Source: Thuidium tamariscinum (lineage: Eukaryota > Streptophyta > Bryopsida > Hypnales > Thuidiaceae). From it: a stretch of DNA of 64,000 nt. This document shows, piece after piece, positions 1,198-40,006 of this stretch. Both the position numbers and the translations under genes were made by a program. Below the pieces are notes generated by a model that saw nothing but the letters and a program-made list of their open reading frames with translations, searched no databases and was not told where the DNA came from. The stretch covers positions 17,003,501-17,067,500 of the forward strand of contig OX344749.2 in NCBI GenBank assembly GCA_947034885.2. The letters run 5' to 3'. Numbering within the stretch: the first letter of the stretch is position 1; every line of letters begins with the position of its first letter.

Positions 1198-3341
1198 TCC
1201 AATTCCCGATCCAATTTTGGTCATATGTGATAAATAATAATTTTATGCAATTCTTAAAGGGAAAAAAGTTGGAGTTGTATACAATGGGGCCACAAATTCT
1301 TGTGAACATTGAACAATTTATTCAAAGAACATCTCTACCATTGCTCCCAAAAGGAGACTCTAAAAAATACAAAAAGACTTAAAAGATATAATTTTGTAGC
1401 CAATAATTTGACAAGTACTTGCTTTTCGTACTATTGGTGTTGGTTTTAGAATCTCTAGGCCCTCACTTGTTTGTTCAATGGGCAAACTTATTGTAGGCTT
1501 GTTGAATATACCAAAAATACAATAAGCATATAAGTTGACACAATTTTTTCTAAATGGTAAATTTTGGATGTTGTAGAAGGCAAATTTGATGCAACTAAGA
1601 AGACTTTGCCCATTTGGCACATAATTGTTGGCCAATAAGAAGAGTTTTGCAAGAGCCAATTGAAGGCCTTTCTACAACCAACATAACGTCCAACAATGGA
1701 AATGCTTTCAAATGAACTGTAGGAGTTGGAGGCTTGAAGGCAAAGCTAAGGTCCATAATTTAATCCTATAGGTAGAATCACCTATTCCCATTCATTTAGA
1801 TTGATAGATAGATTGGCTCAAAATCACAATGAGATGTTGTTTTTTCTTATAGAAAAATGGAAATAATTAATATTCAAAAAAAAAAAATAGGACTCTTGCT
1901 ACTTTCATGCTATAAATGACACCCAACTAAAGGTTTGGAGACCATAGTCATGGGCAATTTCAAAAAGATAACGGAGTCTGAAAAGCATTAGATTTTTATT
2001 GGAAATCAATTTTTCATTGATATTTTGTAGCTATTCATTTGTAATTCTACTATTAATATAAAATTATCTTGAAATATTGACTAGGAGTTTTGAAAAATGA
2101 ATTTACAACAATGAAGTGTAATTTTTGAATGAAACAATAAAAAAAATATGCCATGATGTTCAATACAATAATATATTTCAAATGATTTTTCACTCATTCA
2201 TTTGAAAAAGACACTATGGACTTTCAATTTTAGTCTTGAGAGTTGAAAATTCCATTGCATTATGTCTTGGCTTCATTCCACCATTTTTTTCCTTGTACTT
2301 TATAGTCAAAAAGTAGACCCTATATATGTTAATTTAAAAACCTTATAGGTCATTCAAAAATCAACTAACTAGTTCCAATTCCAAGGTTGTCATTAAATTT
2401 AGGGAGTTTTTTATTTCTTGTGAATTTTTGAAGTCAAAACTTTAAAGTGTTCACTAGGTGCATGTTTGAAAGCATCTTGGAAAAGATCCAAAACCATTCA
2501 TAAAAAGTATGTCACTTTACAACCACAAAGCATCCTTTTAAAAATATGTGCCATTCAAAATGAATTGTTTGAGGTCACATTAGTAAAAATATTGGAGTTT
2601 CTTCTATCCCATATTGATGAAACTTCTATAGACACCTATTGACTGAAATGGATGCATATGGAATTAAAAGACTGTATATTTTGAATGAAGTAATCTAAAA
2701 AACATTATTGAGATTCAAAACATCTTTGGTGTGGCTTAGCCTAAGTTTGTAGGATAGGAAAAAACTTTTCTCATCCATTTTTTTTCAAGTTTCTTGAGTA
2801 CAGTTTCAATGCATAGTATTGCAAATTTCTTCACTATAGTATTTTTGACTTTTTTAAAGAAGAAGATGCCCAATCTATGAATCACCATTGTACTATATTT
2901 TGGCTATTTCTTGCTATATATATGGATGTAAATTTTAGCCATAGAAAATGATGATTTTGAATTTGAGACCAAGTAGTGGAATGAATCATATCAAATGTAG
3001 TTTCTACTTTAATTAAAAAATTTGAAACATTCATAAACTTCAATATTTTACAGCAATATGAAAATTTGGTCTAAAATCACGATTTTCTAATTTTCTAATT
3101 TTAGAATGACATGATAACTTTGGTTTATACTATGATGCTATGTGCTATATTATACATTATGATGAAAATTTTAGATTTTTTCAGTGCATTATGTATTTGA
3201 TATGAAATTTCTTCATTTTTTTCCTTAAAAAACTCACAATAATCTCAAATTTCACTGAAGAAATATAAAATTTTATGACATGTAGTGGATAAGGATTTCA
3301 TCTATCAAAAAAAAATATAAATTTTTTTGTTCATGTCTAAC
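1198..3341. other. AT-rich intergenic DNA without a recognised gene
   Basis: About 2.1 kb of AT-rich sequence with homopolymer runs. A minus-strand frame at 1360-1659 (99 codons) has no recognisable motif and starts with a non-ATG codon; it may be decayed transposon coding sequence. I saw nothing else that can be supported. Confidence 0.5.
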
Positions 3342-3655
3342 GTAGGAGGTTCTAAAAGTGAGCCAAGCTCTAAAATGGAGCACCTCCTCAAATGTACACT
3401 ATTTGTACATGCTGCTTTATCATAGCCTTTAGCAATGTACAAAATGTGTAAATTTGAGGAGGTGCTATACTTTAGGGCCCTATGTCACTTCAACTTCAAA
3501 ATTTTATAACTAATTCCACAAAGCTCCAAAAAATATGAAACAACTTGGGATAGATGTCAATTCCATTTGTCTTTTAAAAAAAATTTACTGAAAAATATTT
3601 CAAGATGTTTCACCTCCCAAAAATTCAGTTCCAGCTCTATTTATGGACCTCCTAC
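3342..3655 (+). mobile_element. GTAGGAGG-terminus MITE, complete copy
   Basis: The left end is GTAGGAGGTTCTA and the right end is GGACCTCCTAC, forming inverted termini of about 11 bp. The body shares several 15-20 bp blocks with 1-237 and 50351-50670. At 314 bp it is too short to encode a transposase. It ends about 75 bp outside the start of WRKY palindrome arm A. No clear target duplication was found, so the superfamily is unassigned. Confidence 0.6.
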
Positions 3656-3813
3656 CTTAGCTGCAAAATGGCAGCAAACGGAGAGGCTCGAAATCAGTGG
3701 TCATCGGACTTTCCAGGTTCCAGGTTCCAGATTTAACAAAAGGGCCAAAGGGCCCCAAAGTAGGCAAAGGCCGGTTGGGCGAAGCAACGTGGGGCCGTGT
3801 GGGGCGGCTCTTG

Positions 3814-3819
3814 TTGACT
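3814..3819 (+). promoter_or_regulatory. W-box core TTGACT, arm A
   Basis: TTGACT matches the known WRKY-binding core TTGAC(C/T). It lies in the diverged shoulder upstream of a WRKY gene yet is retained in both arms (AGTCAA at 18056-18061). Another retained pair lies in the inner shoulders, TTGACT at 8378-8383 and AGTCAA at 13471-13476. Auto- or cross-regulation by WRKY proteins is inferred; a 6-bp motif also occurs by chance. Confidence 0.3.
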
Positions 3820-4708
3820 GAATCCGCTTCTGCGAACTCCAGGGCTCTTCTCTCGAACCTGTGCTCTCCCTTTTTGTCTCTCTCATCACTCCTGCTCTTC
3901 CCTCTTTCGTGCGTCCTTGACATGCATTCAAGCCCGGCACTGCTTTCCCCACCAAAACTGAGCCCAACAATAATCTTTCCATTCCCCTGGCGAGAATCCG
4001 TCCTCCTGATTTCTACCTGGTGGTATCAATAAGTTCTATTGCCGCTAACCCGCTCTTGCTTGCGCTTCTCCTCGTGCTCGCTCGCCCAGCTTTGGGGGGC
4101 TTCCGACGACTCGACACCAGCTGCCCCGCAGGCGCACAATTGGAGGCAGGTCGGGAAGAGCATCAGAATCTATCAGCGAAGGGTCGCTTTGGGGATCCAG
4201 GTGGGGTGGGCTTGGGGTGCAGCTCAGGGAGGTGGGCGTGGTAGGCCGGAGGGGGTTCCTTGTGGACTGGAGCTTCATCGTTGGTGGCGGAGGTATTTGT
4301 TGGTCGGGGTGATTGGAACGACAGGCGGGGATCGATTGGCGGCTGCGTGCTGATCAGGTACACCACGATTCGCTCTGTCGGCGTCGTGTCTGTTGTTGTG
4401 ACGTTCGAGGATTGAGCAGCAGCTTGTTCGCACGGCGAACTTGAGATTGAGAGAGGGAGTGAGAGAGCGAGGAGAGCAATTGAGAGGGTGGAGTGTTTTA
4501 CGGGGTGTGGAAAGGGGCGTGGGCAACGGTAGGGATCGCGGAAGCCATCGCTGCAAGGTCGATCATGCACAGGGTGACTTAGATTCCGGTGCCGTTCCGG
4601 CCAGGCCCGTCTTTCTCTCTTTTTCGAATTACAATTTGGGGTTTTCCGTGGGCGCTCCTGTTTTCGTTTTAGGAATCTGTCCGGAGTTGCCGAGGAAGGA
4701 CTCGCGCA

Positions 4709-4822
4709 ATGTCTGTATCAGTGTGCGTCAGCCGCAGTAGTTCCTGCGGATCCATTTCGGTTGCGTGTCCACCAATTGCGTGGTCCGCTCGGTCCGCTCG
4801 GTCCGTGGAGACATTTGTTTAG
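4709..4822 (+). CDS. Upstream ORF 1 in WRKY leader (37 aa)
   Basis: An ATG at 4709 opens 37 codons ending with TAG at 4820-4822, 230 bp before the WRKY start. The peptide is rich in Ser, Arg and Val and resembles nothing I know. It would act only as a translational uORF, and only if the transcript starts upstream of it. The identical sequence in arm B (17034-17147) is no evidence of selection because the arms are homogenised. Confidence 0.25.
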   Translation: MSVSVCVSRSSSCGSISVACPPIAWSARSARSVETFV

Positions 4823-4853
4823 GAGTTTCGAAAAATTAGAATTTCGCGTCGCT

Positions 4854-4952
4854 ATGGAATTCGTGGTGGACGAATTCGTGTCATCCAAGGAGGATCCGAG
4901 GAGGCGTGTTTCCAATTCCTCGTGGTGCTGCTTCGCTTCGCTTGTGTGGTAG
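4854..4952 (+). CDS. Upstream ORF 2 in WRKY leader (32 aa)
   Basis: An ATG at 4854 opens 32 codons, beginning MEFVVDEFVSSKEDPRRR and ending with TAG at 4950-4952, 100 bp before the WRKY ATG. The spacing would allow a uORF to dampen WRKY translation. There is no match to a known conserved uORF peptide. The arm B copy is at 16904-17002. Confidence 0.3.
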   Translation: MEFVVDEFVSSKEDPRRRVSNSSWCCFASLVW

Positions 4953-5052
4953 CGAAAGCGACTGAAGCGCCGGCTTGGTGTCCCGTCTGTGCTGTTTGGT
5001 TGTAGGGTTTTTGCCGTCGAAGATTTGTTGGGCGTCCATTCGCCGTGGTCCG

Positions 5053-7306
5053 ATGAGCACCCCGGTTCCGCACGGTCCCCCGGCGCCGGACAGTCCCATG
5101 AGCCTGGCGTCCAGTTTCCTGAACGACCAGGTGGCCGTGGACTCGGAGCATGAATTGAAGTCGTTCTCGCACCTTCTCGCAGGTGCCATGTCGCCCCCCG
5201 CGCCCCCGCCCGCCGAGGCCGCGAAGCCGAGCAACTCCTCGGAGTCGTCGAAGCTGACCGGAGGAGGCGACGGCGGCGCTGGCGTGCCGGGCAGCAATTC
5301 GTCCGCGCGCAGCTTCGCCGAGCGCTTGGCAGCTCGCGGCGCGGCCGCGAACAAGAGCGACGGCGAGGTGGGCAACGCGCCACGGCCTCCGCCCTCCAGC
5401 AATGGCAATGGCAGCGGCAGTCGCTACAACCATCTGCCGCCCCCGTCGAGCCTCCCCAACCCCCGCACCAGCAGTGGCGCAGCGGGAGGCTACTTGACCA
5501 TCCCCGCCGGCCTCAGTCCCACCACGCTGTTCGACGCTTCGCCGGTCATGTTGAGCAATGCTCAGGTACGCTCCCACCTGTTGAATGGACGTCCCCAACT
5601 GAAGTGTTTAGGGTCCCAGCCTTGGCTCGTTTCCGTTGGCATGAATGTAGAACAGGTGTGGTAGCCAGTGGTCGGGCCAATCTGGTTTTTCCAGAGGCAC
5701 GGTCGTGGCGAAGGGGGTGGAGTGTCCCTGTGCAATCCAGGGGCCAATGCGACCTCTAGGGTATGGGTTTGCGCTTGTTTGTGGATCCCATTGAATGTGT
5801 TGACAAGTTTAGGTCATGGGATGTCGATGGGTGCAGTCGGAGCCGTCGCCAACGACGGGCTCGTACTCGTACTACCACGGCCTGCGCGCAGGCTCTTCGC
5901 ACAAGGACAGTGGCTCCGACCCAGGGTTTGCGTTCAAGCCATTGGGTGTGAAGACGGCGTCGCACAACCGGCTGTCGCCCCTGAGCTTGCAACACTACAG
6001 CGGGATGCAAGCGCAGGCCCTGGCGCACATGCAGCAGCAAGGCAGCCAGTCCTCGTCCCAGCGAGCTGCAGTGGAAGCCGAGAATTCCCAAGATTCGGAG
6101 CCCGAGCAGGCGCCCGCCGCGTCGGCCCCGGCGGCCGCGACGGTGCCCACGTTCATGGACCGTCCGTCCGAGGATGGCTACAACTGGCGCAAATACGGTC
6201 AGAAGCAGGTGAAGGGCAGCGAGTACCCGCGCAGCTACTACAAGTGCACGCAGACGAATTGCCCCATGAAGAAGAAGGTGGAGCGTTCGCACGACGGCCA
6301 GGTGACGGAGATCGTGTACAAGGGGGATCACAACCACCCGAAGCCGCAGCCCACGCGGCGGATGGCCCTGAGTGGCGCGCACCTGCTGAACGACACGCGC
6401 GAGGCGGATGGCAGCGACAGGCCTGATCACGCGTGGCCGGGTTTCGCAGGCGGCGGGGGTCCGGCGCAGTCCGCCGCGGCGGACGCGTCCGGGAGCGACG
6501 ACGAGGACGGGAGCAAGCTGTCGAACGAGGACGGCGACGACGACGAGCACGACTCGAAGCGAAGGAAGCGGGGCCACGAGAGCTCCAGGGACGTGGCGGC
6601 CGCCGCGCCGCGGACGATTCGCGAGCCGCGCGTGGTGGTGCAAACCACCAGCGACGTGGACATTTTGGACGATGGGTACCGGTGGCGCAAGTACGGTCAG
6701 AAGGTGGTGAAAGGCAACCCGCATCCCAGGTGAGCTTCGCGTGTGAATGCCATCCGCGCCCACTCCATCCCGTCTCCCCATTTTTTTTTTCTGACCTTCG
6801 GAATGCGTGTTTTCAGGAGCTACTACAAGTGCACGAACGTGGGTTGCCAAGTGCGCAAGCACGTGGAGCGCGCCTCCAACGACATCAAAGCCGTGATCAC
6901 CACGTACGAGGGCAAGCACAACCACGACGTTCCCGCCGCGCGCAACAGCGGCCACGAGATGGCGGCGCCTGCGAATCCCCCTCCGTCGCCCGCGACCTCT
7001 CTGCAAGACCAAGGCCTGCGCTTCGGTCGCGGGCTGTCCGGTGCGTATGCCCCCACCCCCGGTCTGGGACGCGTGCGGAAAGACGACGACGTGTACATCC
7101 CGGCCCCGATCACCATGGGCTTGGGAAGGGAGAACGGCGAGCAGCGACTGGCCATGGACGGGTACCGTTCGCAGCTGATGTCCCGTCCGAAGCAGGAGCA
7201 GGGCGGCGACTCCAGCAGCAGCGCCACCCGGCCTCCGTCGCATCTCAACCCGAACTCCACTTTGTACCAACCGAACTTGGCCCATGTCGCCATGGGCCGG
7301 CGCTGA
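5053..7306 (+). CDS. Group I WRKY transcription factor, copy A (three exons)
   Basis: Exons are 5053-5565, 5837-6729 and 6817-7306, giving 631 codons. Introns of 271 bp (phase 0) and 87 bp (phase 2) have GT-AG ends. ATG 5053 was chosen because an in-frame TGA lies at 4963 with no ATG between. Residues 37-46 ([10 protein letters not shown]) and the SP cluster ([11 protein letters not shown] at 148-158, S163-P164, S175-P176) are typical group I motifs; SP sites are known MAP-kinase targets. WRKYGQK occurs at 288-294 with zinc ligands C308, C313, H336, H338 (C-X4-C-X22-H-X1-H), and at 454-460 with C474, C479, H503, H505 (C-X4-C-X23-H-X1-H). A basic KRRKR at 412-416 follows an acidic stretch and is a likely nuclear signal. 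Intron 2 splits the Arg codon before SYYKC, the conserved WRKY intron position. The product should be a nuclear factor binding W-boxes; the motif set resembles AtWRKY3/4/20 or 33 types, but exact orthology is unclear. Confidence 0.95.
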
Positions 7307-8400
7307 CGACGGAGCAGCCGGGTTTTCTTCGCATCCCGTGGCCCCCCCTCCCGTCCCCAACAGGCTCACAGCGTCGCCCCATGCGTTTGGGTTCCAGCGC
7401 TTCGTGTGATTCCTTTGTACAGTTTCCGGGGTAGGTAGGCGTGATTGTTCTCCCTGTCATTTCGAGAACTTATATTCATTTTTGATCAGGGTAGCGCCAT
7501 CCCTTCGTGGGGTTTGAGTTAGCACACAGGCGTTTGGATGCAATGTAGACTAATCTTTCATACATGAAGACAGAGACCGACCGACACGGACAGACAGAAT
7601 CGACTTGTAGAGGACTTGTACATGCAGCAGCTTGTAATGGCCACTTTGTATCTGTTGTACGTCAAGTGGGAGACTGAGCCTTGAATTTTGAGTTTGGTCC
7701 CCGCCGCTTGCTGATTTTTTCTTTCACCCGGATGGATTAGTTTTCGAGTGGACTCTTCGACCGACTGTGTTGTTTCGGTGGTGTATGGTTTTGGAGGTTG
7801 AGTCGGGTGAGACGGCTGTCGTGAGTGATTGTGTTTTTGTTTTCGTTTGGATGGAATGTGAACGCATTTCAGTGGTTTGATTTGTTTTTTGGTGAACGCG
7901 TTTTGGAATGTTTGGTTGCACCGTCTGCACTGAATTGGTGAGGCCAGTGTTTTGTTTTTCTGGAGTGAGCCAGGGTTATGTTTTGGTGGCTTGTTTTCGT
8001 CCGGGAAGCTTGAGGTCGCGACTTCCATGCTGCGATGAATTTGTGATGGAGTTCCGGCATCAGGAAAGTAACCTGCAGAAGGTGCTTGATGACGGCGCGG
8101 TCTTGTATGCAGAACGTCCTTGAGGTGTTTGACCGCTTGGGAGTAGGGCAGCGGCTCCTGTTGCTTTAGTGCATCGAAGGATTTTGGACGTCGCGAAGGC
8201 GTTGGCTCAATTTTCCAGTATCTCAGTGGTGCGAATGCGGAGGGCTTTCTCTCGCATTTTTATTTCCTCTTTTTTTGTCCGCAGTTGAGTAGTGCACCTT
8301 GAGTTGGCCCTCCGACTGCTATGCCGATCTGTTCTTGAAGATCTATCATGACATGATTTATGTGGAAATGGTGGCTGTTGACTGCACCTGCTCGTTTTTG
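7307..8400 (+). other. 3' flank / probable 3' UTR of WRKY copy A
   Basis: Non-coding sequence of intermediate GC content that is identical in arm B up to 8193. Several TTGTA/TGTAA motifs at 7610-7665 could belong to a plant polyadenylation region, but no AATAAA was identified and the transcript end is unknown. A 156-codon antisense frame (7558-8028) has no recognised domain and is probably fortuitous. From 8194 inward the arms start to differ. Confidence 0.5.
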
Positions 8401-8756
8401 AGGTAGATTTTAATGCTTCTATTTAATTTGGTGTTTACTTGAGGTTGTTCAACAATGATATAAAAACTGTAACCCAACCGGACTTGGGGTCCAGTGCCCT
8501 CGAATTTGACTGCAGACTTTGAAAACCATGGACGAATATATGCTTTGTGTCCAGGTGTTCTGGCAACAGTCGGTTTCGATGTTTCTTTTCATCCATCATG
8601 ACTAGTCTTGCAGTTGAGGCCACTTGTGATAATTCAAATTAAGAATTTTCTCAAAGGAAGCTTGGTTTGAATTTGTGGCTAATTAAAAATAAAAATAGAA
8701 ATCTCTAAAATCATTCTTTGCATCTAGTAGTGTTATAATAAGAGTTTATATCTTTA
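8401..8756. other. Start of palindrome spacer, no gene seen
   Basis: This sequence immediately inside arm A does not match the equivalent position beside arm B (13382-13450), so the palindrome's inner breakpoint lies near 8400. It is moderately AT-rich with no supportable coding frame. Confidence 0.5.
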
Positions 8757-8970
8757 ACGCATAAACGACATTGGAGCCATTTTATGATCGATGAATAGGA
8801 AAGCCTTTTGAAGTATAGGATAAAATTGCAAGCATTTATTCTCGGAATTAGGGATGGAAAAGGAAGATCTTCTTCAATTTTTTGACTTCAAATGCTTACT
8901 TTTGGATTTTTTAATACCACTGATTCCTATGGTTTCAGAAAAGATGGATTTTTAGGTGACCCCTACGTTG
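8757..8970 (-). mobile_element. Decayed 220-bp TTAA-type mini-element
   Basis: It resembles, in reverse orientation, the short elements at 25939-26152 and 62636-62857. It begins near TTAACGCATAAACGAC and ends GGTGACCCCTACG. The inner 'ggaagatcttc' block is shared by several copies. Both termini are mutated. Confidence 0.4.
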
Positions 8971-9026
8971 TTTAAGGATTAAGATTTATGATAATAGTTT
9001 GGTAATAAGTATTCAATTCACTTTAA

Positions 9027-9690
9027 TCCTAAAGGACCAAGGCATTTTTTGGCTCAATAACCACTCAAGACTACCATGTTTGCTACTTCCCCCCAACATT
9101 CCAAAAAACCCATTTTTTTAGAATCTAACCATTGGATCTTGTAATTCAATTGTCTTAGATGATGTGGTTAAAATTTCATGAAGTTTGATTGTACCAATTG
9201 GAAGATATTAGCATTCAATGTTAGAAAAAAAAGTTTTTTTGAATTCTAGCTTGCAATTTCAAATGAATTTGACATTCATTTGTGGATTTTTTTTTTCACT
9301 ATTGACCATGAACTAATTTTTTTTTAATCTTCAACATTTTGGTTGAGAATCTTGAAAAAAAAATTCAAGAAAAGAGCTCTTGATTTCATTCATTCAAAAA
9401 TTGTGAAGTAGAAGTAGGTTCAAGATCGAACCAAACACTAAATTGTTAATAGCTTCAAGATGGAATTGAAAACCATAATCCCAACAATGAGATTATTTTT
9501 GCAAAAAAACTCAACCCTATTAAAAAAATTTGAAAAATTGCATTCAAAAATGAATTTTATAAGTTGTTTTTTCTAGAAGTTACTTTGACTGCGCAAAATA
9601 CAAGATTGTCCCTAACTTTCTCATTATGAGTCCAAATAGAATGATTCAAATCTTTAAATTTAAACTAAAACAAAATCTTTGAGATAATTA
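9027..9690 (+). mobile_element. Truncated 0.92-kb TTAA element
   Basis: It starts TTAA (9023-9026) then TCCTAAAGGACCAAGGC and follows 47658-48578 for about 650 bp through shared blocks such as 'aatttcatgaagtttga' and 'caagattgtcc'. The right third and right terminus are missing or unrecognisable. It lies in the spacer between the palindrome arms. Confidence 0.6.
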
Positions 9691-10244
9691 TGCTTTTATA
9701 ATCATTTTTATTTACATTAAATATTATACATTGAGAACTAACAACATCAATCATTTGATAATGGAAATTTAATTAAACTATAAAAAATTATAGTTGTCTA
9801 ATTCTTTGAATCCAATTGTTGAGAGTTAAATCCTAAATGACCATACATTCAAGTTTGAAACAATAAAGCAATGCACATATGTTATGGGCATATTAAACAT
9901 TAATTTTTTCATCCACCTATTATTTATGGATGGATGTGCTAATTCTCTTACATTTATATAATGCAATTTAACATGCATAAGTATGTCTCGATATCAAAAA
10001 CTTCTTTTTTTGTATTCAAAAGTGACCCTTCAAAAATGACTTCAATAAATAAATAAAATTAAAACCTTAAAAAGTCAACTTAATTGGACGTCAATATTTT
10101 GAATTTTAAGAGAAAAAATATTTTTGTGAATATTACAAATGTTTAATCTATAATCAACTTTAGAAGGTGTTTTTAATTTTTGGTTTCAAATTTTATTGAA
10201 AAATATTGATTAGTGTAGTAGTTGATCCAACCACATGAATATGC
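9691..10244. other. AT-rich spacer DNA
   Basis: Nothing coding was seen. A possible orphan terminus (TTAAATCCTAAATGACC) is near 9836. Confidence 0.4.
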
Positions 10245-10654
10245 GGGTGATTGCAAGAAATACTCATTTTGTTTTTGTCCCTCAACGTCAATCAAGTGTT
10301 ATTTTGCTCATAATTTTTTCAATTTTTTGTCCATTTGGTATGGAATCTGGAATGAAGGTACACACAATAGTTGCAAATCTTGAGTGATTTTTTCAAATTA
10401 AAAAAATTTATTTTATTGTTAAACTACATCCCCCGATTAAGTATCTTCTTTAGCCATTTAGAGGGATTTCAGTCCTATTTTTGACCCAAAAATGAAAATT
10501 TGAAGCCACAAATTATACATATTGGAAGTCTACTAACAATACAAGGACCAAAAGTGAATTTTCATGAAAATAGCAAAGTGTTGGTTGCACACATGGGGTC
10601 AAAGTGACCTTCCTTTGCACAAAGGCTACAAAGAGATTAAAAAAATTCCTATAT

Positions 10655-10974
10655 CATAAGAGGATTTTTAGCTACTCTGGAAGACCGTGAGTTATCAGGC
10701 CATGGGAACTCTTTGAACGCTGCCACTGAGGCGATCTGATGTGGCCAAGAGGCTGCCACATCAGATAATCATATTTAATTAATTTTTTAATTTTTTTTTT
10801 ATTAATTTTTAAAATTTTTTTTAAAATTTTTAAATAATTTTTTAATATTAAATTATTATTATTATTATTATTTTTTATTTTTTATTTTTTTTAATTTTTA
10901 TTTTATCTGACGCGTTCGCAGACAGGGGAACAGGCCTGAAACGGTCTCCTGAAGCCCAGAAAAATCCTCTTATG
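10655..10974 (-). mobile_element. CATAAGAGG-terminus MITE, copy 1
   Basis: Inverted ends CATAAGAGGATTTTT and AAAAATCCTCTTATG enclose 320 bp. It matches the copy at 52317-52637 in reverse orientation, including an AGACCGT block just inside the end. The middle is almost pure A/T while both ends are GC-rich. It is inserted inside E1. No target duplication was recognised. Confidence 0.8.
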
Positions 10975-11141
10975 GTGCAATGTGAGCGTAATCTTTTCTA
11001 GCAAAATTATCTTTAATTCATTTTTGGAATTTTTTCTTAAAATAATTTAATGAATAGTTATTGGATTACTAAAAATGAAAAGGTCTAGAGACATTGTTTT
11101 TGCTAGTTTTTTCTCCTAGTGGCTTTCATAGTACTTCATAA

Positions 11142-11430
11142 CAATGTTTTTTTTTCATTTCTTATGAAGTGCCAAAGTAGCCATATTTCATTTTATTGTA
11201 GAGCTCCAAATCTCAACATTCATCCATATATTGGATAGAAAATATCATATTAGCACATAATACATATCTATCATTCTATTTTCATCCATTACTTGGCAAT
11301 TTCATTCATTATTTTTTTTAAATCTGAAATTTATTGGCAATTTCATCCAAATTTTTTTTTCCTATAGGCTTGGTGCTAGGCCAAAAAAATTGGTGCAATT
11401 TTGCACTAAATCGCCATGAAAAAAACATTG
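11142..11430 (-). mobile_element. hAT-like MITE with 8-bp target duplication
   Basis: Ends CAATGTTTTTTTTTCAT and ATGAAAAAAACATTG. The flanks cttcataa (11134-11141) and cttgataa (11431-11438) agree at 7 of 8 bases. An 8-bp duplication and CA...TG ends are hAT-superfamily hallmarks. Related copies on the other strand are at 37588-37880 and 57059-57360. It is nested in E1. Confidence 0.75.
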
Positions 11431-11634
11431 CTTGATAATAGTCTATAGTATTGCATAATATTGCACATTATAGAATTAATGATTTAGATTTGTAGGTGCC
11501 TTGAATTGACAATTTAGATCTATAATTGTGTTGTTGACACATAGTACTAGAGTAATATTGTATAGTACTACTAGTCCTATGGCCTAAAACTACATTTTTG
11601 AGACAAAAATGTTAAGTGTTTCTTGCAATCACCC

Positions 11635-12790
11635 ATATGGTCATATTTTACATTTATTCTTGAAAGCCATCATTCAATTATTTTTCTAAGTTGTATTGAA
11701 AAATACATCTACACAATTTTAGAAATGTGGTCTCCTCTTTGGTCCTTAAGTGGTAAGAATATATCTTCTTTTACTAATATGTTTACATGAAAATAGGAAA
11801 ATATTCTTCTTAATATTCTTCAACTATCTCCACATCAAACTTTTACCTGCACCCTTACCCCAAAATGAACTTCTAGTTCCCCTCAATTTTACTACAATAA
11901 GCTCAATACTACACTTTGAAAAAGGTTCCAAAACTATTAGGACCATAGGAGTTCATTTGATACCAAACTGGCCAGTTACAACTTGAAAGGGGTTGACATA
12001 CCATTATTTTTAGAGTTTAGGACCAAACATTTTGTCCAACAAAGAAGATCATACTAGAGTAGAGGGAGTATCATTCACTATTAATATTCAACACACTAAT
12101 AGAATATACTCTTACTATTTCTACACTGTCCTTATGCTCAATCCTTATTTGGAAATGATTAGTAGCACTTTACTATAATTTTATCACAAAATTGATGTTT
12201 TGATTGATTCATAAAATGTGGATGCTTCACTAAATAGTATGTGCAATTTGATTTTAGAACTTTTGTTCTTGACAAGGAAACTTTGTAGTAGTCAACTACA
12301 AAATATACAATAAGGTAGAGCCACCCATAGCAATTCAAGACTCCATCCCCAACTTGTAGACTGCATTTATTTCCAATAAGGTTGAAACATATTTAATTTC
12401 CATCTAGAGCTAAGAATGCAAGTTTTTTTCTTTTTTAATATTGGGACTAATAAATTTATAACACATGCCCCGAATTAATGAGCAAGAAAGTAGGAAGTAA
12501 TGAACAGGAAATGAATTCTTCAATGACCATAATTCAATGATCATAATTGGAAGAGTCTACGGATTGACAATGGGTCTACAACACTTTTTGCTTTTCAAAA
12601 TTCATAGTAATTTCAATTCATGTGATTTGCACTACACCACATCATGTCTAGAATACCTTAACCAGTTGGTTATGGGTGGTTCTACCTTACATAATTCTCA
12701 AAGCTGGGTCTGCACAAGTTCTTAACCGACATTGCATTACATTTCTACGCTTGTCTTAAAAGTCATTAGAGAAGGTGATCAATGGTTTAT
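11635..12790. other. AT-rich spacer DNA, no gene recognised
   Basis: Contains only short frames without motifs (11750-11986, 12537-12725). A lone AGAGGGAGTAT near 12060 could be an old Stowaway terminus but lacks a partner. Confidence 0.4.
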
Positions 12791-12809
12791 TTAGTCTGTT
12801 TCCATACAG

Positions 12810-13381
12810 GTTTGGGCTTCAGTTGAAAGTGACGAACCCTCGTAGAAGCAGATCAGTTGAAATTGTTAGTTCAGAAACTCAACGAACTTTATGCTGTAAA
12901 GTCTTTCAGTAGGCCTGTTTTTCAGGCTTGTTGAATTTGAAGGCTCAAATGGATAGGAGAAGATCCTCATGGTTCATTGTTTGCGGCATGAAAACCATCA
13001 TTCTTACTCAATCGCTAGTACAGATAACGACTAAGAAATAGGACCCATATTCAACGAATTTGTTTGCAACTGAGCCTCGTACTAAAGCATAACGATGCGT
13101 GTGGGAAAGAGCAAAAGGATAGCCCTGGGGACCTGTTTTCAAACTCAATTGCATCCGCAGGGAAGGCAATAAATGGTAATTCTCTACTAAAATTCTCCAC
13201 AAGCCTGGCCAAAGACTCTACAAGAAACCACTTTCCTCAACCCTCTCCAGTTGCACTTGCCTCTGGGGAAAATGGCTCTGGTCGCTTGTGTAAACAATCG
13301 GGCATTTCCAATGAAACCCTCCAAACCGAAACCACGAGGAACAGGCAAATTCAAAGAAAGCTAATGAATCTAATTGAATAA
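12810..13381 (+). pseudogene. Possible gene fragment in palindrome spacer
   Basis: GC content rises here next to arm B. A pyrimidine-rich tract ending CATACAG at 12809 resembles a splice acceptor and is followed by a 33-codon open frame (12811-12912). A second open frame runs 13028-13381 (117 codons, no early ATG, ending TAA) and is rich in Ser, Asn, Gln and Lys, ending NRQIQRKLMNLIE. Codon texture is more protein-like than in the AT-rich DNA, but I recognise no domain and cannot join the frames. It is absent beside arm A. It may be a decayed gene end or chance. Confidence 0.25.
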
Positions 13382-13450
13382 AATCAAAACTCCTCGCTCC
13401 AAAGAGCATACACTACATCACAAGCCAAGGCAAGCAAAAAAGTTCACGCC

Positions 13451-14549
13451 CAAAAACAGCGAGTTTGTGCAGTCAACAGCCGTTTTGGATGTCATGATGC
13501 ATACAGTGGAGCAGCTCTTCAAGAATCGATCGGAATGGCAGTTGGAGGGCCAACTCAAGGTGCACTACTCAACTGCGGACAAATAAAAGGAAATAAAAAA
13601 GCGAGAGAAAGCCCTCCGCATTCGCACCACTGAGATACTGGAAAATTGAGCCAACGCCTTCACGACGTCCAAAATCCTTCGATGCACTAAAGCAACAGGA
13701 GCCGCTGCCCTACTCCCAAGCGGTCAAACACCTCAAGGACGTTCTGCATACAAGACCGCGCCGTCATCAAGCACCTTCTGCAGGTTACTTTCCTGATGCC
13801 GGAACTCCATCACAAATTCATCGCAGCATGGAAGTCGCGACCTCAAGCTTCCCGGACGAAAACAAGCCACCAAAACATAACCCTGGCTCACTCCAGAAAA
13901 ACAAAACACTGGCCTCACCAATTCAGTGCAGACGGTGCAACCAAACATTCCAAAACGCGTTCACCAAAAAACAAATCAAACCACTGAAATGCGTTCACAT
14001 TCCATCCAAACGAAAACAAAAACACAATCACTCACGACAGCCGTCTCACCCGACTCAACCTCCAAAACCATACACCACCGAAACAACACAGTCGGTCGAA
14101 GAGTCCACTCGAAAACTAATCCATCCGGGTGAAAGAAAAAATCAGCAAGCGGCGGGGACCAAACTCAAAATTCAAGGCTCAGTCTCCCACTTGACGTACA
14201 ACAGATACAAAGTGGCCATTACAAGCTGCTGCATGTACAAGTCCTCTACAAGTCGATTCTGTCTGTCCGTGTCGGTCGGTCTCTGTCTTCATGTATGAAA
14301 GATTAGTCTACATTGCATCCAAACGCCTGTGTGCTAACTCAAACCCCACGAAGGGATGGCGCTACCCTGATCAAAAATGAATATAAGTTCTCGAAATGAC
14401 AGGGAGAACAATCACGCCTACCTACCCCGGAAACTGTACAAAGGAATCACACGAAGCGCTGGAACCCAAACGCATGGGGCGACGCTGTGAGCCTGTTGGG
14501 GACGGGAGGGGGGGCCACGGGATGCGAAGAAAACCCGGCTGCTCCGTCG
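13451..14549 (-). other. 3' flank / probable 3' UTR of WRKY copy B
   Basis: Reverse complement of 7307-8400, identical for 13663-14549 and diverged from 13451 to 13662. The reverse-complement W-box AGTCAA at 13471-13476 is kept from the other arm. No separate gene is supported. Confidence 0.5.
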
Positions 14550-16803
14550 TCAGCGCCGGCCCATGGCGACATGGGCCAAGTTCGGTTGGTACAAAGTGGA
14601 GTTCGGGTTGAGATGCGACGGAGGCCGGGTGGCGCTGCTGCTGGAGTCGCCGCCCTGCTCCTGCTTCGGACGGGACATCAGCTGCGAACGGTACCCGTCC
14701 ATGGCCAGTCGCTGCTCGCCGTTCTCCCTTCCCAAGCCCATGGTGATCGGGGCCGGGATGTACACGTCGTCGTCTTTCCGCACGCGTCCCAGACCGGGGG
14801 TGGGGGCATACGCACCGGACAGCCCGCGACCGAAGCGCAGGCCTTGGTCTTGCAGAGAGGTCGCGGGCGACGGAGGGGGATTCGCAGGCGCCGCCATCTC
14901 GTGGCCGCTGTTGCGCGCGGCGGGAACGTCGTGGTTGTGCTTGCCCTCGTACGTGGTGATCACGGCTTTGATGTCGTTGGAGGCGCGCTCCACGTGCTTG
15001 CGCACTTGGCAACCCACGTTCGTGCACTTGTAGTAGCTCCTGAAAACACGCATTCCGAAGGTCAGAAAAAAAAAATGGGGAGACGGGATGGAGTGGGCGC
15101 GGATGGCATTCACACGCGAAGCTCACCTGGGATGCGGGTTGCCTTTCACCACCTTCTGACCGTACTTGCGCCACCGGTACCCATCGTCCAAAATGTCCAC
15201 GTCGCTGGTGGTTTGCACCACCACGCGCGGCTCGCGAATCGTCCGCGGCGCGGCGGCCGCCACGTCCCTGGAGCTCTCGTGGCCCCGCTTCCTTCGCTTC
15301 GAGTCGTGCTCGTCGTCGTCGCCGTCCTCGTTCGACAGCTTGCTCCCGTCCTCGTCGTCGCTCCCGGACGCGTCCGCCGCGGCGGACTGCGCCGGACCCC
15401 CGCCGCCTGCGAAACCCGGCCACGCGTGATCAGGCCTGTCGCTGCCATCCGCCTCGCGCGTGTCGTTCAGCAGGTGCGCGCCACTCAGGGCCATCCGCCG
15501 CGTGGGCTGCGGCTTCGGGTGGTTGTGATCCCCCTTGTACACGATCTCCGTCACCTGGCCGTCGTGCGAACGCTCCACCTTCTTCTTCATGGGGCAATTC
15601 GTCTGCGTGCACTTGTAGTAGCTGCGCGGGTACTCGCTGCCCTTCACCTGCTTCTGACCGTATTTGCGCCAGTTGTAGCCATCCTCGGACGGACGGTCCA
15701 TGAACGTGGGCACCGTCGCGGCCGCCGGGGCCGACGCGGCGGGCGCCTGCTCGGGCTCCGAATCTTGGGAATTCTCGGCTTCCACTGCAGCTCGCTGGGA
15801 CGAGGACTGGCTGCCTTGCTGCTGCATGTGCGCCAGGGCCTGCGCTTGCATCCCGCTGTAGTGTTGCAAGCTCAGGGGCGACAGCCGGTTGTGCGACGCC
15901 GTCTTCACACCCAATGGCTTGAACGCAAACCCTGGGTCGGAGCCACTGTCCTTGTGCGAAGAGCCTGCGCGCAGGCCGTGGTAGTACGAGTACGAGCCCG
16001 TCGTTGGCGACGGCTCCGACTGCACCCATCGACATCCCATGACCTAAACTTGTCAACACATTCAATGGGATCCACAAACAAGCGCAAACCCATACCCTAG
16101 AGGTCGCATTGGCCCCTGGATTGCACAGGGACACTCCACCCCCTTCGCCACGACCGTGCCTCTGGAAAAACCAGATTGGCCCGACCACTGGCTACCACAC
16201 CTGTTCTACATTCATGCCAACGGAAACGAGCCAAGGCTGGGACCCTAAACACTTCAGTTGGGGACGTCCATTCAACAGGTGGGAGCGTACCTGAGCATTG
16301 CTCAACATGACCGGCGAAGCGTCGAACAGCGTGGTGGGACTGAGGCCGGCGGGGATGGTCAAGTAGCCTCCCGCTGCGCCACTGCTGGTGCGGGGGTTGG
16401 GGAGGCTCGACGGGGGCGGCAGATGGTTGTAGCGACTGCCGCTGCCATTGCCATTGCTGGAGGGCGGAGGCCGTGGCGCGTTGCCCACCTCGCCGTCGCT
16501 CTTGTTCGCGGCCGCGCCGCGAGCTGCCAAGCGCTCGGCGAAGCTGCGCGCGGACGAATTGCTGCCCGGCACGCCAGCGCCGCCGTCGCCTCCTCCGGTC
16601 AGCTTCGACGACTCCGAGGAGTTGCTCGGCTTCGCGGCCTCGGCGGGCGGGGGCGCGGGGGGCGACATGGCACCTGCGAGAAGGTGCGAGAACGACTTCA
16701 ATTCATGCTCCGAGTCCACGGCCACCTGGTCGTTCAGGAAACTGGACGCCAGGCTCATGGGACTGTCCGGCGCCGGGGGACCGTGCGGAACCGGGGTGCT
16801 CAT
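14550..16803 (-). CDS. Group I WRKY transcription factor, copy B (three exons)
   Basis: The minus-strand mirror of copy A, with exons 16803-16291, 16019-15127 and 15039-14550 and introns of 271 and 87 bp. The predicted 631-residue protein is identical to copy A: two WRKYGQK motifs (288-294, 454-460), both complete C2H2 zinc sites, the SP cluster around residues 148-176, and the KRRKR basic patch at 412-416. Introns, including the T10 tract before the 3' splice site of intron 2, are also identical. Nothing marks it as a pseudogene. It converges on copy A across a 5 kb spacer. Because the proteins do not differ, any functional difference would have to come from distal promoter or 3' shoulder sequence. 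Confidence 0.95.
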
Positions 16804-16903
16804 CGGACCACGGCGAATGGACGCCCAACAAATCTTCGACGGCAAAAACCCTACAACCAAACAGCACAGACGGGACACCAAGCCGGCGCTTCAGTCGCTT
16901 TCG

Positions 16904-17002
16904 CTACCACACAAGCGAAGCGAAGCAGCACCACGAGGAATTGGAAACACGCCTCCTCGGATCCTCCTTGGATGACACGAATTCGTCCACCACGAATTCC
17001 AT
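16904..17002 (-). CDS. Upstream ORF 2 in leader of WRKY copy B (32 aa)
   Basis: Identical to 4854-4952; it ends 100 bp upstream of the copy B start codon at 16803. It could act in translation control if transcribed. Confidence 0.3.
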   Translation of the reverse strand: MEFVVDEFVSSKEDPRRRVSNSSWCCFASLVW

Positions 17003-17033
17003 AGCGACGCGAAATTCTAATTTTTCGAAACTC

Positions 17034-17147
17034 CTAAACAAATGTCTCCACGGACCGAGCGGACCGAGCGGACCACGCAATTGGTGGACACGCAACCGAA
17101 ATGGATCCGCAGGAACTACTGCGGCTGACGCACACTGATACAGACAT
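17034..17147 (-). CDS. Upstream ORF 1 in leader of WRKY copy B (37 aa)
   Basis: Identical to 4709-4822. No known uORF family is recognised. Confidence 0.25.
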   Translation of the reverse strand: MSVSVCVSRSSSCGSISVACPPIAWSARSARSVETFV

Positions 17148-18055
17148 TGCGCGAGTCCTTCCTCGGCAACTCCGGACAGATTCCTAAAACGAAAACAGGA
17201 GCGCCCACGGAAAACCCCAAATTGTAATTCGAAAAAGAGAGAAAGACGGGCCTGGCCGGAACGGCACCGGAATCTAAGTCACCCTGTGCATGATCGACCT
17301 TGCAGCGATGGCTTCCGCGATCCCTACCGTTGCCCACGCCCCTTTCCACACCCCGTAAAACACTCCACCCTCTCAATTGCTCTCCTCGCTCTCTCACTCC
17401 CTCTCTCAATCTCAAGTTCGCCGTGCGAACAAGCTGCTGCTCAATCCTCGAACGTCACAACAACAGACACGACGCCGACAGAGCGAATCGTGGTGTACCT
17501 GATCAGCACGCAGCCGCCAATCGATCCCCGCCTGTCGTTCCAATCTCCCCGACCAACAAATACCTCCGCCACCAACGATGAAGCTCCAGTCCACAAGGAA
17601 CCCCCTCCGGCCTACCACGCCCACCTCCCTGAGCTGCACCCCAAGCCCACCCCACCTGGATCCCCAAAGCGATCCTTCGCTGATAGATTCTGATGCTCTT
17701 CCCGACCTGCCTCCAATTGTGCGCCTGCGGGGCAGCTGGTGTCGGGTCGTCGGAAGCCCCCCAAAGCTGGGCGAGCGAGAAGCGCAAGCAAGAGCGGGGA
17801 AGCGGCAATATAACTTATTGATACCACCAGGTAGAAATCAGGAGGACGGACTCTCACGACCAGACAGCCAGGGGAAAGGAAACAGTGGTTGGTTTAGTTG
17901 AGGCGAGGAGTGCAGCGAGGAGTGACGGGAAAAGCAAGAGAAGAGCAAGAGAAGAGCAAGAGGAGAGCAAGAGAAAGGGGAGAGAGGCAATGGGAAGAGG
18001 TTTTTGAGGGAAGGCCTTCAGTGCAGGGAACCCTGGAGTTCGCTGAAGCGGATTC

Positions 18056-18061
18056 AGTCAA
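18056..18061 (-). promoter_or_regulatory. W-box core TTGACT, arm B
   Basis: AGTCAA on the plus strand, the counterpart of 3814-3819. It is kept although neighbouring shoulder sequence has diverged. Function is inferred only. Confidence 0.3.
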
Positions 18062-18141
18062 CAAGAGCCGCCGCCCACGTTGCTTCGCCCAACCGGCCTT
18101 CGCTACTTTGTGGGCCTTTCTTAAGCCTTTCGCCCTTAAAA

Positions 18142-22046: not shown

Positions 22047-24080
22047 CCCCTAAATGTTCAAAGGCCTCTTGTATAGTGGGGTACCAATCAAAATGTCGTT
22101 TTCGAATTCGCAGTGAGAAAAATTTCAGTACTGCCAACTTTGAAAGCCTCTCGAGAGCTCAAAAATTGGTATTTTACCACGAAAATTTTACCACAGCATT
22201 ATTTTTAAGTTAATTATATGTATGCCAAATTTCAAGGCCAAAAGATTCACCAAAAAAAAGTTATTCAAAATCTATCAACATGGGTAGTGGAGAGAAACAT
22301 TTCACTACTTTCAACTTTGACACCTTCCTAAGGATTGAGTTTTTTTTCTTTTGCCATGAAATTTTTGTCATGAAATAATCTCTATTTTTTTAATATGTAT
22401 AAAAAATTTCAAGGTAAATTTTTTTAAAGAAGATATTTGAAATCTCCCAACAAGTGTAGTTTTGAGAAAATTTTCACAATTGCCAACTTTGACACCCTCC
22501 CAAGGGCTGAAAAATTGGTTTCTTACCATGAATTTTTTTTTGTGAAGTCATCTCTATGTTGATATGTTCTCCAAATTTCAAGTTCAAATGAATTACCAAA
22601 AAAAAGATATACAAAATCTCCCAACATGTGTAGTTGTGAGGAGGAGTTTTTGAGCCCTTAGTATAGTGTTATTTTGCGGAGCAAAGTTTGACACGAATGT
22701 AAAAACTCAACCTCACAACTACACATGTTGAGAGATTTTGAATATCTTTTTTTGGGTAAGTGTTTTGAACTTGAAATTTGGAATATATATTACCAACATA
22801 AAGTTGATCTTATTCAAAAAAATTCATGTTAATTAGACAAATTTTCAGCCCTTGGGAGGGTATCAAAGTTGGCAATAGCGAAAATTTTCTCACAACTACA
22901 CATGTTGAGAGATTTTGTATATCTTCTTTTTGGTAAGTCATTTGAACTTGAAATTTGGAGAACATATTATAAACATAGAGATAACTTCACACAAAAAAAT
23001 TCATGGTAAGAAACCAATTTTTCAGCCCTTGGGAGGGTGTCAAAGTTGGCAATTGTGAAAATTTTCTCAAAACTACACCTGTTGGGAGATTTCAAATATC
23101 TTCTTTAAAAAAATTTACCTTGAAATTTTTTATACATATTAAAAAAATAGAGATTGTTTCATGAAAAAAATTTCATGGAAAAAGAAAAAAATTCAATCCT
23201 TAGGAAGGTGTCAAAGTTGAAAGTAGTGAAATGTTTCTCACCACTATCCATGTTGATAGATTTTGAAAAACTTTTTTTTGGTAAATCTTTTGGCCTTGAA
23301 ATTTGGCATACATATAATTAACTTAAAGATGATGTTGTGGTAAGAATTTTGTGGTAAAATACCAATTTTTGAGCTCTTGGGAGGCTTTCAAAGTTGGCAG
23401 TACTGAAATTTTTCTCATTGTGAATTTGAAAACGACATTTTGATTGGTCCCCCACTGTACTTTTTGAAATCAAATCAAACAAAACCAAAAATATAATTTT
23501 TGATAAGTTTGATCAATATTCTTAAAGTTGCAATGGTAGAATTCAAACTAGTCAAGATCTATTATTGATCATGTAGGAAAAGAAAACACAATAATATCAC
23601 TTTTGGATTGAAATATACTATTTAATCAAGAGGGTGTTAAAACTACTTTTTAAGATCATTTGAAGCCTTTCAATACTCTTTTTACATGTCAAATCAAAAA
23701 TTGAGGTCATGATCAATAAATGAGATTGGAGGCCCTAACACGCATAATCATAATCAATTTAAGGCTTCTCAAATCCATTCTACAATTTTTTTCAAAATGA
23801 ATTTCTAAAATGTAATTTCTTCCCTAGAATCTATAGTTTTTGAGTCTCATCTCCAAAATCCTCTATCACTAAAAAAAACCAATTACAATGGCATCTATGC
23901 ACAAAAAATTTCAATAGAAACATGATAAATAAATAAAATTCAAAATCATAATTTTGGCATTTAAAGGACACTACAAAGGATATTGTATTTCAAAAAAATA
24001 CCAAAAATAAGACTTTAGTAAGGTTTTATTTAGCTTAAAAGTTTAATTGATGCCAAATATAGTGCCTTGAGCATTTAGGA
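22047..24080 (-). mobile_element. 0.65-kb TTAA-class element split by a TA foldback
   Basis: Left terminus CCCCTAAATGTTCAAAGG (flank TTAT) and right terminus CCTTGAGCATTTAGGA. The sequence 23460-24080 aligns, reversed, with 42885-43530. Taking out the 1384-bp foldback at 22074-23457 and one TA leaves about 648 bp, the length of the intact relative (646 bp), which shows the order of insertion. Confidence 0.75.
22074..23457 (+). mobile_element. TA-flanked modular foldback element, copy 1
   Basis: A 1384-bp hairpin-like element with ends TAGTGGGGTACCAATC and (reverse complement) CAGTGGGGGACCAATC, flanked by TA on both sides. TA duplication and a CAGTGGGG start fit Tc1/mariner-type termini. The left arm has three and the right arm four diverged copies of a module of about 170 bp, recognisable by 'gccaactttgacaccc' and 'caacatgtgtagtt'. 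A unique centre of about 70 bp lies near 22645-22715. No transposase frame. Confidence 0.85.
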
Positions 24081-39571: not shown

Positions 39572-40006
39572 AGTAAATTTGATATGATGTTGTAGAAAAT
39601 GTACGTGGTTTAGGTGGAGAATGAATAGATGTCACTTGAGATAGAAACGTTCTTAATGATGTTTTGAAAAACAAGTTTATGTTTGTTTGTCACATCCAAA
39701 AAATATGAATTGTCATGTTGCAAGAAGAAGTCCATTTTGACTATGGATAAATTAGTAAAAATTACTATAATCTATGGTAAAATATTGACCATATATTAAA
39801 AAATTAGGAAAAAGGTAGCCATATGGCATGCTTTACAAAAAAAGGGAAATGGATGGATGTATAGTATGGATGAAAAGAGATGATCTTTATACAAGTGGAG
39901 TGGTAGGAGGAGAAACAATTCAGATGGGATATGTAAAACAACAATAATTGTGTATAGTGTAAAATGTCAAACAACATTTAGACATTAGAAACAATATCAA
40001 TATGTA

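Follow-up and report, generated by a model that had tools for sequence, protein, structure and literature searches.

An inverted WRKY gene pair in the moss Thuidium tamariscinum has an identical 3.9-kb core between diverged arm ends, a pattern best explained by arm-to-arm gene conversion

Two copies of a WRKY gene lie tail to tail in an inverted repeat of the moss Thuidium tamariscinum. The central 3.9 kb of the two arms is free of differences, arm-specific homologous sequence on both sides of it has diverged, and a like pattern is present at some other inverted pairs of the same genome. We consider it highly probable that the duplication is an older one whose core was recently overwritten by gene conversion between the arms. 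The stretch analyzed, 64,000 nucleotides in all and referred to below as the window, is located at 17.0 Mb within the 54.2-Mb contig C1.

Layout of the Inverted Repeat

Comparison of the window with itself by BLAST matched 3992-8344 to 17855-13513 on opposite strands at 99.40% identity (4,353 columns, 16 mismatches, and two gap openings), with a second match of 86% between 3747-3847 and 18119-18028. Together these matches delimit two arms separated by a spacer of about 5.2 kb (Table 1). By palindrome we mean inverted arms that are more than 99% identical around an unduplicated spacer; the longer match exceeds that identity, and the spacer stretch 8500-13400 occurred once as a whole in a genome search. 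The spacer does hold old repeats: 9028-9688 comes from a high-copy family with 14,739 candidate places, of which 40 were scored, the best other copy among these being 82% alike.

Genome searches with the outer shoulder (query 3700-4320) and the inner shoulder returned the two arms only. A query of the opening 1,001 bp of the core likewise gave no third copy, and a WRKY domain scan of the genome revealed no third gene of equal score. Across these queries, neither a further copy nor a dispersed repeat turned up from which the homology could derive. Rfam had zero matches within the window, ten open frames searched against Pfam, eight of them outside the arms, gave two weak matches, both under the family cut-off, and no microinversion was seen at 8345-8372.

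Table 1. Features of the inverted repeat, in window coordinates.
Feature	Positions	Strand	Remarks
Left arm	3747..8344	+	Detectable homology; weak collinear match onward to about 8418
Right arm	13513..18119	-	Reverse complement of left arm
Spacer	8345..13512	no strand	5,168 bp; 31.6% G+C
Identical core	4311..8193	+	3,883 sites, 0 differences, no gaps
Core partner	13663..17545	-	Mirror of 4311..8193
WRKY exon 1, left copy	5053..5565	+	Start codon 5053; frame and splice sites by inspection
WRKY exon 2, left copy	5837..6729	+	Acceptor picked to fit PSPTTGSY stretch conserved in paralogue
WRKY exon 3, left copy	6817..7306	+	Stop codon 7304-7306 included
Second WRKY copy, start to stop codon	14550..16803	-	Identical; exons 16803-16291, 16019-15127, 15039-14550; mirror coordinates of core
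Outer shoulder, upstream of gene	3747..4310	+	46 mismatches/532 sites, 13 gap events (four bins summed)
Shoulder bin	4111-4310		3 mismatches/200 sites
Shoulder bin	3992-4110		4 mismatches/110 sites, 1 gap event
Shoulder bin	3848-3991		33 mismatches/130 sites, 9 gap events
Shoulder bin	3747-3847		6 mismatches/92 sites, 3 gap events
Inner shoulder, downstream of gene	8194..8344	+	9 mismatches/150 sites, 2 gap events (two bins summed)
Shoulder bin	8194-8273		3 mismatches/79 sites, 1 gap event
Shoulder bin	8274-8344		6 mismatches/71 sites, 1 gap event
Edge bin	8345-8418		8 mismatches/61 sites, 7 gap events

The WRKY Gene Pair

Each arm carries one complete WRKY gene of 631 aa. For exon 2, in-frame alternative acceptors would start the exon at 5813 or 5843. 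The spliced product matches PF03106 twice (E 2.3e-52), and its solved relatives include WRKY33 and WRKY4. Two WRKY domains and an intron in the C-terminal domain after the residues PR are presumably the marks of a Group I WRKY transcription factor, and both are present here, intron 6730-6816 sitting between PR and SYYKC. For the 190-aa exon 2 piece, no relatives were confirmed in viral and genome contig collections. The nearest paralogue, on C3, has six exons against three here, as read from translations, the gene described here being without three adjacent internal introns of that paralogue. As an outgroup for the shoulders the C3 gene yielded, besides coding blocks, one 33-bp match that was not collinear.

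The gene is rich in G+C, with a GC3 of 0.85 and introns at 53-55%, compared with 30-32% in the DNA around it, and the N-terminal WRKY domain has a GC3 of 0.89, versus 0.53 in the C3 paralogue. We dropped G+C-biased conversion as an additional proof, given that on C8 a WRKY gene lacking an inverted copy within the surrounding 30 kb is nearly as G+C-rich (domain GC3 0.87) and that the shoulder differences from 3992 to 8344 split 6:6 between the arms for G/C versus A/T.

An Identical Core Between Diverged Shoulders

The core limits of 4311 and 8193 claimed in the earlier note proved exact in a global alignment of the arms, which has its first differences at 4310 and 8194. The zero-difference core takes in both introns, with a T10 tract in the second of them, the leader, the 742 bp that precede the start codon, and 887 bp of sequence following the stop codon, as had been claimed for the introns, leader, T10 tract, and 0.9 kb of 3′ flank. 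Substitutions number 0 at the 3,883 core sites versus 16 at the 460 sites that adjoin the core (Fisher p = 2e-16), and when 16 substitutions were shuffled 20,000 times over 4,343 sites the longest clean run was at most 2,608, against the 3,883 observed. For the 1,987 non-coding core sites the shoulder rate predicts 69 differences, and none was seen. Coding and non-coding sequence are therefore equally free of differences between homologous edges (3747-4310 and 8194-8344) that are diverged and specific to the two arms, the combination that we call a plateau.

Substitutions and indels were found in both shoulders, again as claimed (Table 1); over the edges as a whole, mismatches range from 1.5 to 25% per bin, with 22 gap events. 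Divergence per bin is hence far from uniform along the arms; uniform divergence was the outcome that the earlier note had set beforehand as contradicting its reading. That note had described a plateau with decaying edges; the plateau and the diverged edges stand, but the decay of the left edge is not monotonic, with 3848-3991 worse than 3747-3847 further out. The stretch 3848-3991 is CT-rich, and the partner arm has an 11-bp tandem repeat at 17929-17975. Outward crowding of shoulder events gave p = 0.11 on the left, p = 0.08 on the right, and p = 0.014 pooled, a post hoc figure for arms whose ends were defined by BLAST.

Past 8344, the inner homology consists of a 15-base collinear match (8373-8387) only, and the stretch beyond that position scores 44, no better than the control median of 42. 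On the outer side, local alignment of 3200-3991 with the partner scored 190, and two of 100 control stretches scored higher (269 and 283), probably owing to a dispersed repeat at 3471-3638 inside the query. Among these sequence comparisons, the genome search with 3700-4320 is better evidence than the local alignment that the outer shoulder is arm-specific.

Other Gene Pairs in the Same Genome

Seven inverted neighbor pairs, the WRKY pair described above included, were read as DNA, of which four have identical cores (3,883, 2,502, 1,640, and 617 bp) and three have no long one. In an inverted light-harvesting pair on C6, with copies 69 kb apart, a 1,640-bp plateau without differences is followed by 3/156, then 80/568 with 16 gaps, and 39/396 with 19 gaps, so that a 1-kb shoulder with 10-14% divergence and 35 gap events adjoins it. 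An inverted pair on C9 has 0/617 adjoining 11/146 with two gaps, and one at 0.11 Mb on C1 has 0/2,502, its homology stopping almost at once on both sides. The three inverted pairs with no long identical core are on C10 (longest run 186), at 50.53/50.56 Mb on C1 (not consecutive; longest run 214), and at 50.55/50.56 Mb on C1 (85% by BLAST). None of three direct tandem pairs read as DNA shows a plateau: in a direct WRKY pair on C2, the blocks that surround the WRKY exons differ by 0-8% and the stretches separating these blocks by 16-58% per 100 bp, 172 being the longest identical run; a direct light-harvesting pair on C4 has a longest identical run of 143, and another at 50.53/50.55 Mb on C1 is 87.9% alike by BLAST.

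We also surveyed same-family neighbors no more than 100 kb apart, hand-read from domain scans with one row per gene and consecutive pairs only, in the WRKY, light-harvesting, AP2, and P450 families. Equal domain scores were found in 4 of 22 inverted pairs (WRKY 1/1, light-harvesting 3/7, AP2 0/9, P450 0/5) versus 2 of 44 direct pairs (WRKY 0/2, light-harvesting 2/6, AP2 0/3, P450 0/33; p = 0.09), the P450 pairs coming from the 92 of 547 candidates that were scored. With the same P450 sample, identical DNA cores of at least 600 bp are present in 4/22 inverted versus 0/44 direct pairs (p = 0.010), or versus 1/44 (p = 0.039) if one equal-score direct pair on C4, known by score alone, is counted; survey pairs beyond the seven inverted and three direct ones read as DNA were judged from unequal scores. 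For WRKY and light-harvesting genes alone the difference is not significant (p = 0.08 or 0.28). The survey thus gives a hint of an excess of identical inverted pairs over direct ones. Two RuBisCO small-subunit genes, outside the survey counts, were also found as an inverted pair, with equal scores for one exon and unequal scores for the other.

Gene Conversion as the Probable Cause, and Its Alternatives

Under the explanation that we favor, the WRKY gene, together with flanking DNA upstream and on the 3′ side, would have been duplicated in inverted orientation some time ago, after which both edges diverged by substitution and indel. More recently, non-allelic homologous recombination would have used one arm as the template for repairing a break in the other, leaving the central 3.9 kb identical. 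Because conversion requires flanking homology, it would rarely extend over the terminal few hundred bases of an arm, which would consequently erode. The likely result is two interchangeable WRKY copies that double the dosage of a single protein. From this pattern we infer conversion as the mechanism, its direction, and the choice between one event and many; one event followed by drift and repeated conversion fit equally well, the sharp-step and graded models of the edges being equal in fit (AIC 415 vs. 417). The earlier note had proposed an old palindrome under arm-to-arm conversion. An older duplication with conversion of its core is supported by the plateau, the arm-specific edges, and the C6 and C9 pairs, though three of the seven inverted pairs show no such shape. 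The term palindrome is loose for inverted arms that lie 5,168 bp apart.

A single recent inverted duplication, by break-induced replication or template switching, could have left mismatches at the edges through error-prone synthesis at its junctions. The core alone does resemble a very young duplication, and the pair at 0.11 Mb on C1, with its abrupt homology ends, is as compatible with a young duplication as with conversion. However, the shoulders here carry up to 25% mismatches and nine gap events within 144 bp, with homology reaching out to 3747; transversions slightly exceed transitions (9:7), and the gap-ridden kilobase beside the C6 plateau would be hard to obtain from one event. We know of no mutation clusters from error-prone repair that reach the divergence of these shoulders, and we regard this explanation as unlikely. 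A collapse of the cores, or their polishing to one consensus, is another concern, identical repeats being a typical failure point of assemblies. Here the arms are joined to different flanks and different shoulders, tandem copies stay distinct in the assembly, and its inverted pairs span the range from diverged to identical over varied lengths; consensus error alone, moreover, would not leave diverged homologous edges. An artifact of assembly is accordingly very unlikely.

The plateau contains a complete transcription-factor gene, which purifying selection might hold identical while the edges drift freely. The introns, leader, and 3′ flank are nevertheless as identical as the coding part, as are the T10 tract and the stretch upstream of the start codon, and selection on the protein therefore cannot explain the plateau; it was ruled out by the non-coding core sites. 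The tandem WRKY pair on C2 offers the contrasting case, conserved around the WRKY exons and not between them. Selection as a cause has next to no probability in our view, and hardly more credence can be given to the overwriting of both arms from elsewhere, by a shared cDNA or a third copy, rather than from each other. The three introns missing relative to the C3 paralogue are what replacement by cDNA would leave, and a cDNA could have hit one arm and then been copied to the other. But identity extends to the two introns still present and to 1.6 kb beyond the coding part, introns cannot be supplied by a cDNA, and searches with the WRKY domain and with the opening 1,001 bp of the core yielded no third copy.

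Implications

Homologous recombination is strong in mosses. It is conceivable, if somewhat doubtful, that arm-to-arm conversion acts on inverted gene pairs in general in this moss genome while direct tandem pairs diverge. In that case, the WRKY and light-harvesting families (the latter including an LHCSR-like member) would keep identical cores across spacers of a few kb to about 69 kb, and moss genomes would hold a set of small palindromes by which particular genes are kept uniform, in the manner of the sex-chromosome palindromes of mammals and willow. The process itself is already known; what makes the case interesting is that it recurs at ordinary gene pairs within a single moss genome. The WRKY pair is a compact case in which conversion boundaries can be read base by base, and at least two further cases with diverged shoulders (C6 and C9) have other arm lengths and spacers. 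Were mosses generally to homogenize inverted pairs, the dating of duplicate genes and orthology calls would be biased in mosses, and one could measure how short the arms may be, and how far apart, for conversion still to take place in a plant. Since the homogenized WRKY gene is without three adjacent introns of its nearest paralogue, the process may also bear on intron loss.

Comparison With Known Systems

A literature search on WRKY genes with gene conversion and inverted copies, in a collection that subscription papers largely fall outside, found no relevant report; among the matches listed there for conversion in mosses and Physcomitrella, titles and the opening portions of abstracts did not contain this pattern. 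In Physcomitrella patens, concerted evolution of tandemly arrayed genes has been described and gene conversion suggested (PMC3045890). Those arrays resemble the present case in that neighboring moss duplicates are unusually similar. Inverted arms, plateaus, and eroded edges are not described in the available portion of that report, and here the homogenized pairs are inverted while three direct pairs are not homogenized.

Arm-to-arm gene conversion of inverted copies is known from the human Y and the willow W (PMC7023750). The ampliconic palindromes of the human Y likewise hold inverted gene copies kept similar by conversion between arms, but differ in their far longer arms, non-recombining chromosome, and testis genes (PMC7023750). 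The W palindromes of Salix purpurea are sex-linked, with a 20-kb sequence in four arms and palindromes of 43 and >165 kb, whereas the moss repeat has two 4.6-kb arms; the willow case is backed by comparison with S. suchowensis, while ours is read from one genome alone (PMC7023750). As far as the available part of that report goes, the likeness is otherwise considerable: both systems are inverted plant gene copies for which gene conversion is invoked, identity is confined to part of the arms, and the difference-free region is 3 kb in the willow and 3.9 kb in the moss (PMC7023750).

The inverted repeat and its WRKY genes

The window corresponds to C1:17,003,501-17,067,500 (C-numbers denote contigs of this assembly) in a 363-Mb genome of 19 contigs. 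Two inverted copies, or arms (3747-8344 and 13513-18119), are separated by a 5,168-bp spacer, and each carries one complete WRKY gene of three exons, 631 codons and two WRKY domains, with exon borders predicted from the genomic sequence rather than from transcripts. The two genes face each other and are among 19 WRKY loci in the genome (hand count from 37 domain matches, both arms included). Measured over 3600-8600 and 12900-18100, both arms are high-G+C islands with CpG close to expectation within CpG-depleted DNA (observed/expected 0.16-0.39), which suggests that they may be unmethylated gene islands within methylated repeats. A 233-codon open frame on the minus strand (7561-8259), antisense to the WRKY 3′ flank and spanning the core edge, gave no match in a Pfam scan and probably arose by chance.

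The window holds other inverted structures. Positions 43582-44661 are self-complementary when the window is compared with itself (97.6% over 1,084 columns, hardly any spacer), possibly representing a foldback element. Related elements with inverted ends, 91% alike, lie at 22069-23470, which contains internal tandem repeats of about 177 bp, and at 39994-41408. Further inverted repeats occur at 60421-60866/61518-61963 and at 63725-64000, the latter running to the window end (94% and 97% alike, respectively).

An identical core between diverged shoulders

The earlier note had claimed that about 3.9 kb, including introns, leader and 0.9 kb of 3′ flank, was free of differences between the arms. This was borne out: 4311-8193 showed no differences and no gaps over 3,883 sites, of which 1,987 are non-coding (742 bp upstream of the coding region, 887 bp downstream of it, and two introns measuring 271 and 87 bp); at the shoulder rate, 69 differences would be expected in these non-coding sites. 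Differences start immediately outside the core on both sides, and both shoulders carry the substitutions and indels described previously. Divergence is present at both edges; the outer side is non-monotonic, and step and graded models fit equally well (AIC 415 and 417, respectively). In the third outer bin the sequence is CT-rich, with tandem repeats in one of the arms, and the non-monotonic step there may therefore be a local property.

Start codons, shoulder divergence (mismatches/sites, outward from the core) and inverted gene pairs
Feature	Location	Strand or distance	Reading
WRKY start codon, left copy	window 5053	+	read from sequence
WRKY start codon, right copy	window 16803	-	read from sequence
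Outer shoulder bins			3/200; 4/110 + 1 gap; 33/130 + 9 gaps; 6/92 + 3 gaps
Inner shoulder bins			3/79 + 1 gap; 6/71 + 1 gap; 8/61 + 7 gaps (alignment of last doubtful)
Light-harvesting inverted pair	C1:0.11 Mb	23 kb apart	2,502 identical bases; flanks 1/142 and 2/60
Light-harvesting inverted pair	C6	69 kb apart	0/1,640, then 3/156, 80/568 + 16 gaps, 39/396 + 19 gaps
Light-harvesting inverted pair	C9	2.5 kb apart	0/617 adjoining 11/146 + 2 gaps
Inverted pair	C10	9 kb apart	longest identical run 186
Inverted pair	C1:50.53/50.56		longest identical run 214
Inverted pair	C1:50.55/50.56		85% by BLAST

When 16 substitutions were scattered randomly over 4,343 ungapped sites, the longest clean run was at most 2,608 in 20,000 trials, compared with the observed 3,883. 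Divergence binned along the arms, a check proposed in the earlier note, was not uniform, ranging from 0/3,883 in the core to 33/130 with nine gaps. Genome searches for the shoulders as dispersed repeats (3700-4320 and 8100-8700), by a method that passes over very common words, returned only their own place and the partner. With a clean core set against diverged shoulders, arm-to-arm gene conversion within an older inverted duplication, as originally proposed, is the best explanation and a very probable one. If the mutation rate in this species is assumed to lie between 5e-9 and 1e-8 per site and year, the core would be younger than about 39,000-77,000 years (95% bound 0.077%), and a shoulder with 3.5% divergence would date to 1.8-3.5 million years.

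We infer each step of the mechanism by applying established recombination theory to this pair. A break or gap in one arm would be repaired from the other, on the same or sister chromatid. A crossover between inverted arms would merely flip the spacer, and the pair, unlike direct repeats, would therefore not be readily deleted and would remain available for conversion. Arm ends would be poorly covered because strand invasion requires homology on both sides, leaving eroded margins.

Neighboring gene pairs elsewhere in the genome

Several inverted neighbors of the chlorophyll a/b-binding family share equal domain scores. Six inverted pairs besides the WRKY pair, and three direct pairs, were read at the DNA level. 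An identical core exceeding 600 bp was found in four of the seven inverted pairs (WRKY pair counted), which is not a genome-wide rate because score steered the choice of pairs. Homologous diverged shoulders accompany three of these four plateaus (WRKY, C6 and C9); after WRKY, C6 offers the cleanest example. A plateau was absent from all three direct pairs: WRKY on C2, and light-harvesting genes on C4 and at C1:50.53/50.55. By scores alone, inverted neighbors yielded no candidates among AP2 (0/9) or P450 genes (0/5; 92 of 547 P450 candidates scored), and by this measure the phenomenon is therefore selective. Scored P450 neighbors were direct in 33 of 38 consecutive pairs (hand count, from the same 92 of 547).

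The two RuBisCO small-subunit genes found form an inverted pair 27 kb apart (C1:37,895,537 and 37,922,131), with one exon score equal and the other slightly unequal. One light-harvesting protein matched chains 7xqp_4, 7ksq_4 and 8htu_4, which we take to be from the moss Physcomitrium patens, at 348-350 bits (next chain 310). Another is presumably LHCSR-like, judging by its sequence features, a type not known from seed plants. These proteins would fit a moss other than P. patens, which differs in genome size and chromosome number; the genome was perhaps sequenced from haploid tissue.

Intron content and relation to known systems

The nearest paralogue (C3:16,264,001-16,284,000) has six exons vs. 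three in the homogenized WRKY gene (window 5053-7306), as read from translations; the latter is without three adjacent internal introns of the former, while the first and last are kept. Recombination with cDNA is expected to leave exact loss of adjacent introns, a pattern that the missing WRKY introns would match. Intron gain in the C3 paralogue, instead of loss in the homogenized gene, is a possible alternative. With respect to loss, PMC3729371 suggests that strong homologous recombination may favor such events in P. patens, but its section 10 puts the share of genes with fewer introns at 14% in that moss, no higher than the 14% of rice or the 19% of Arabidopsis. Gene conversion itself is already known, and what is worth following here is its compact, recurrent occurrence at ordinary moss gene pairs. 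PMC3045890 describes the tandem genes of moss as closely alike and possibly subject to conversion.
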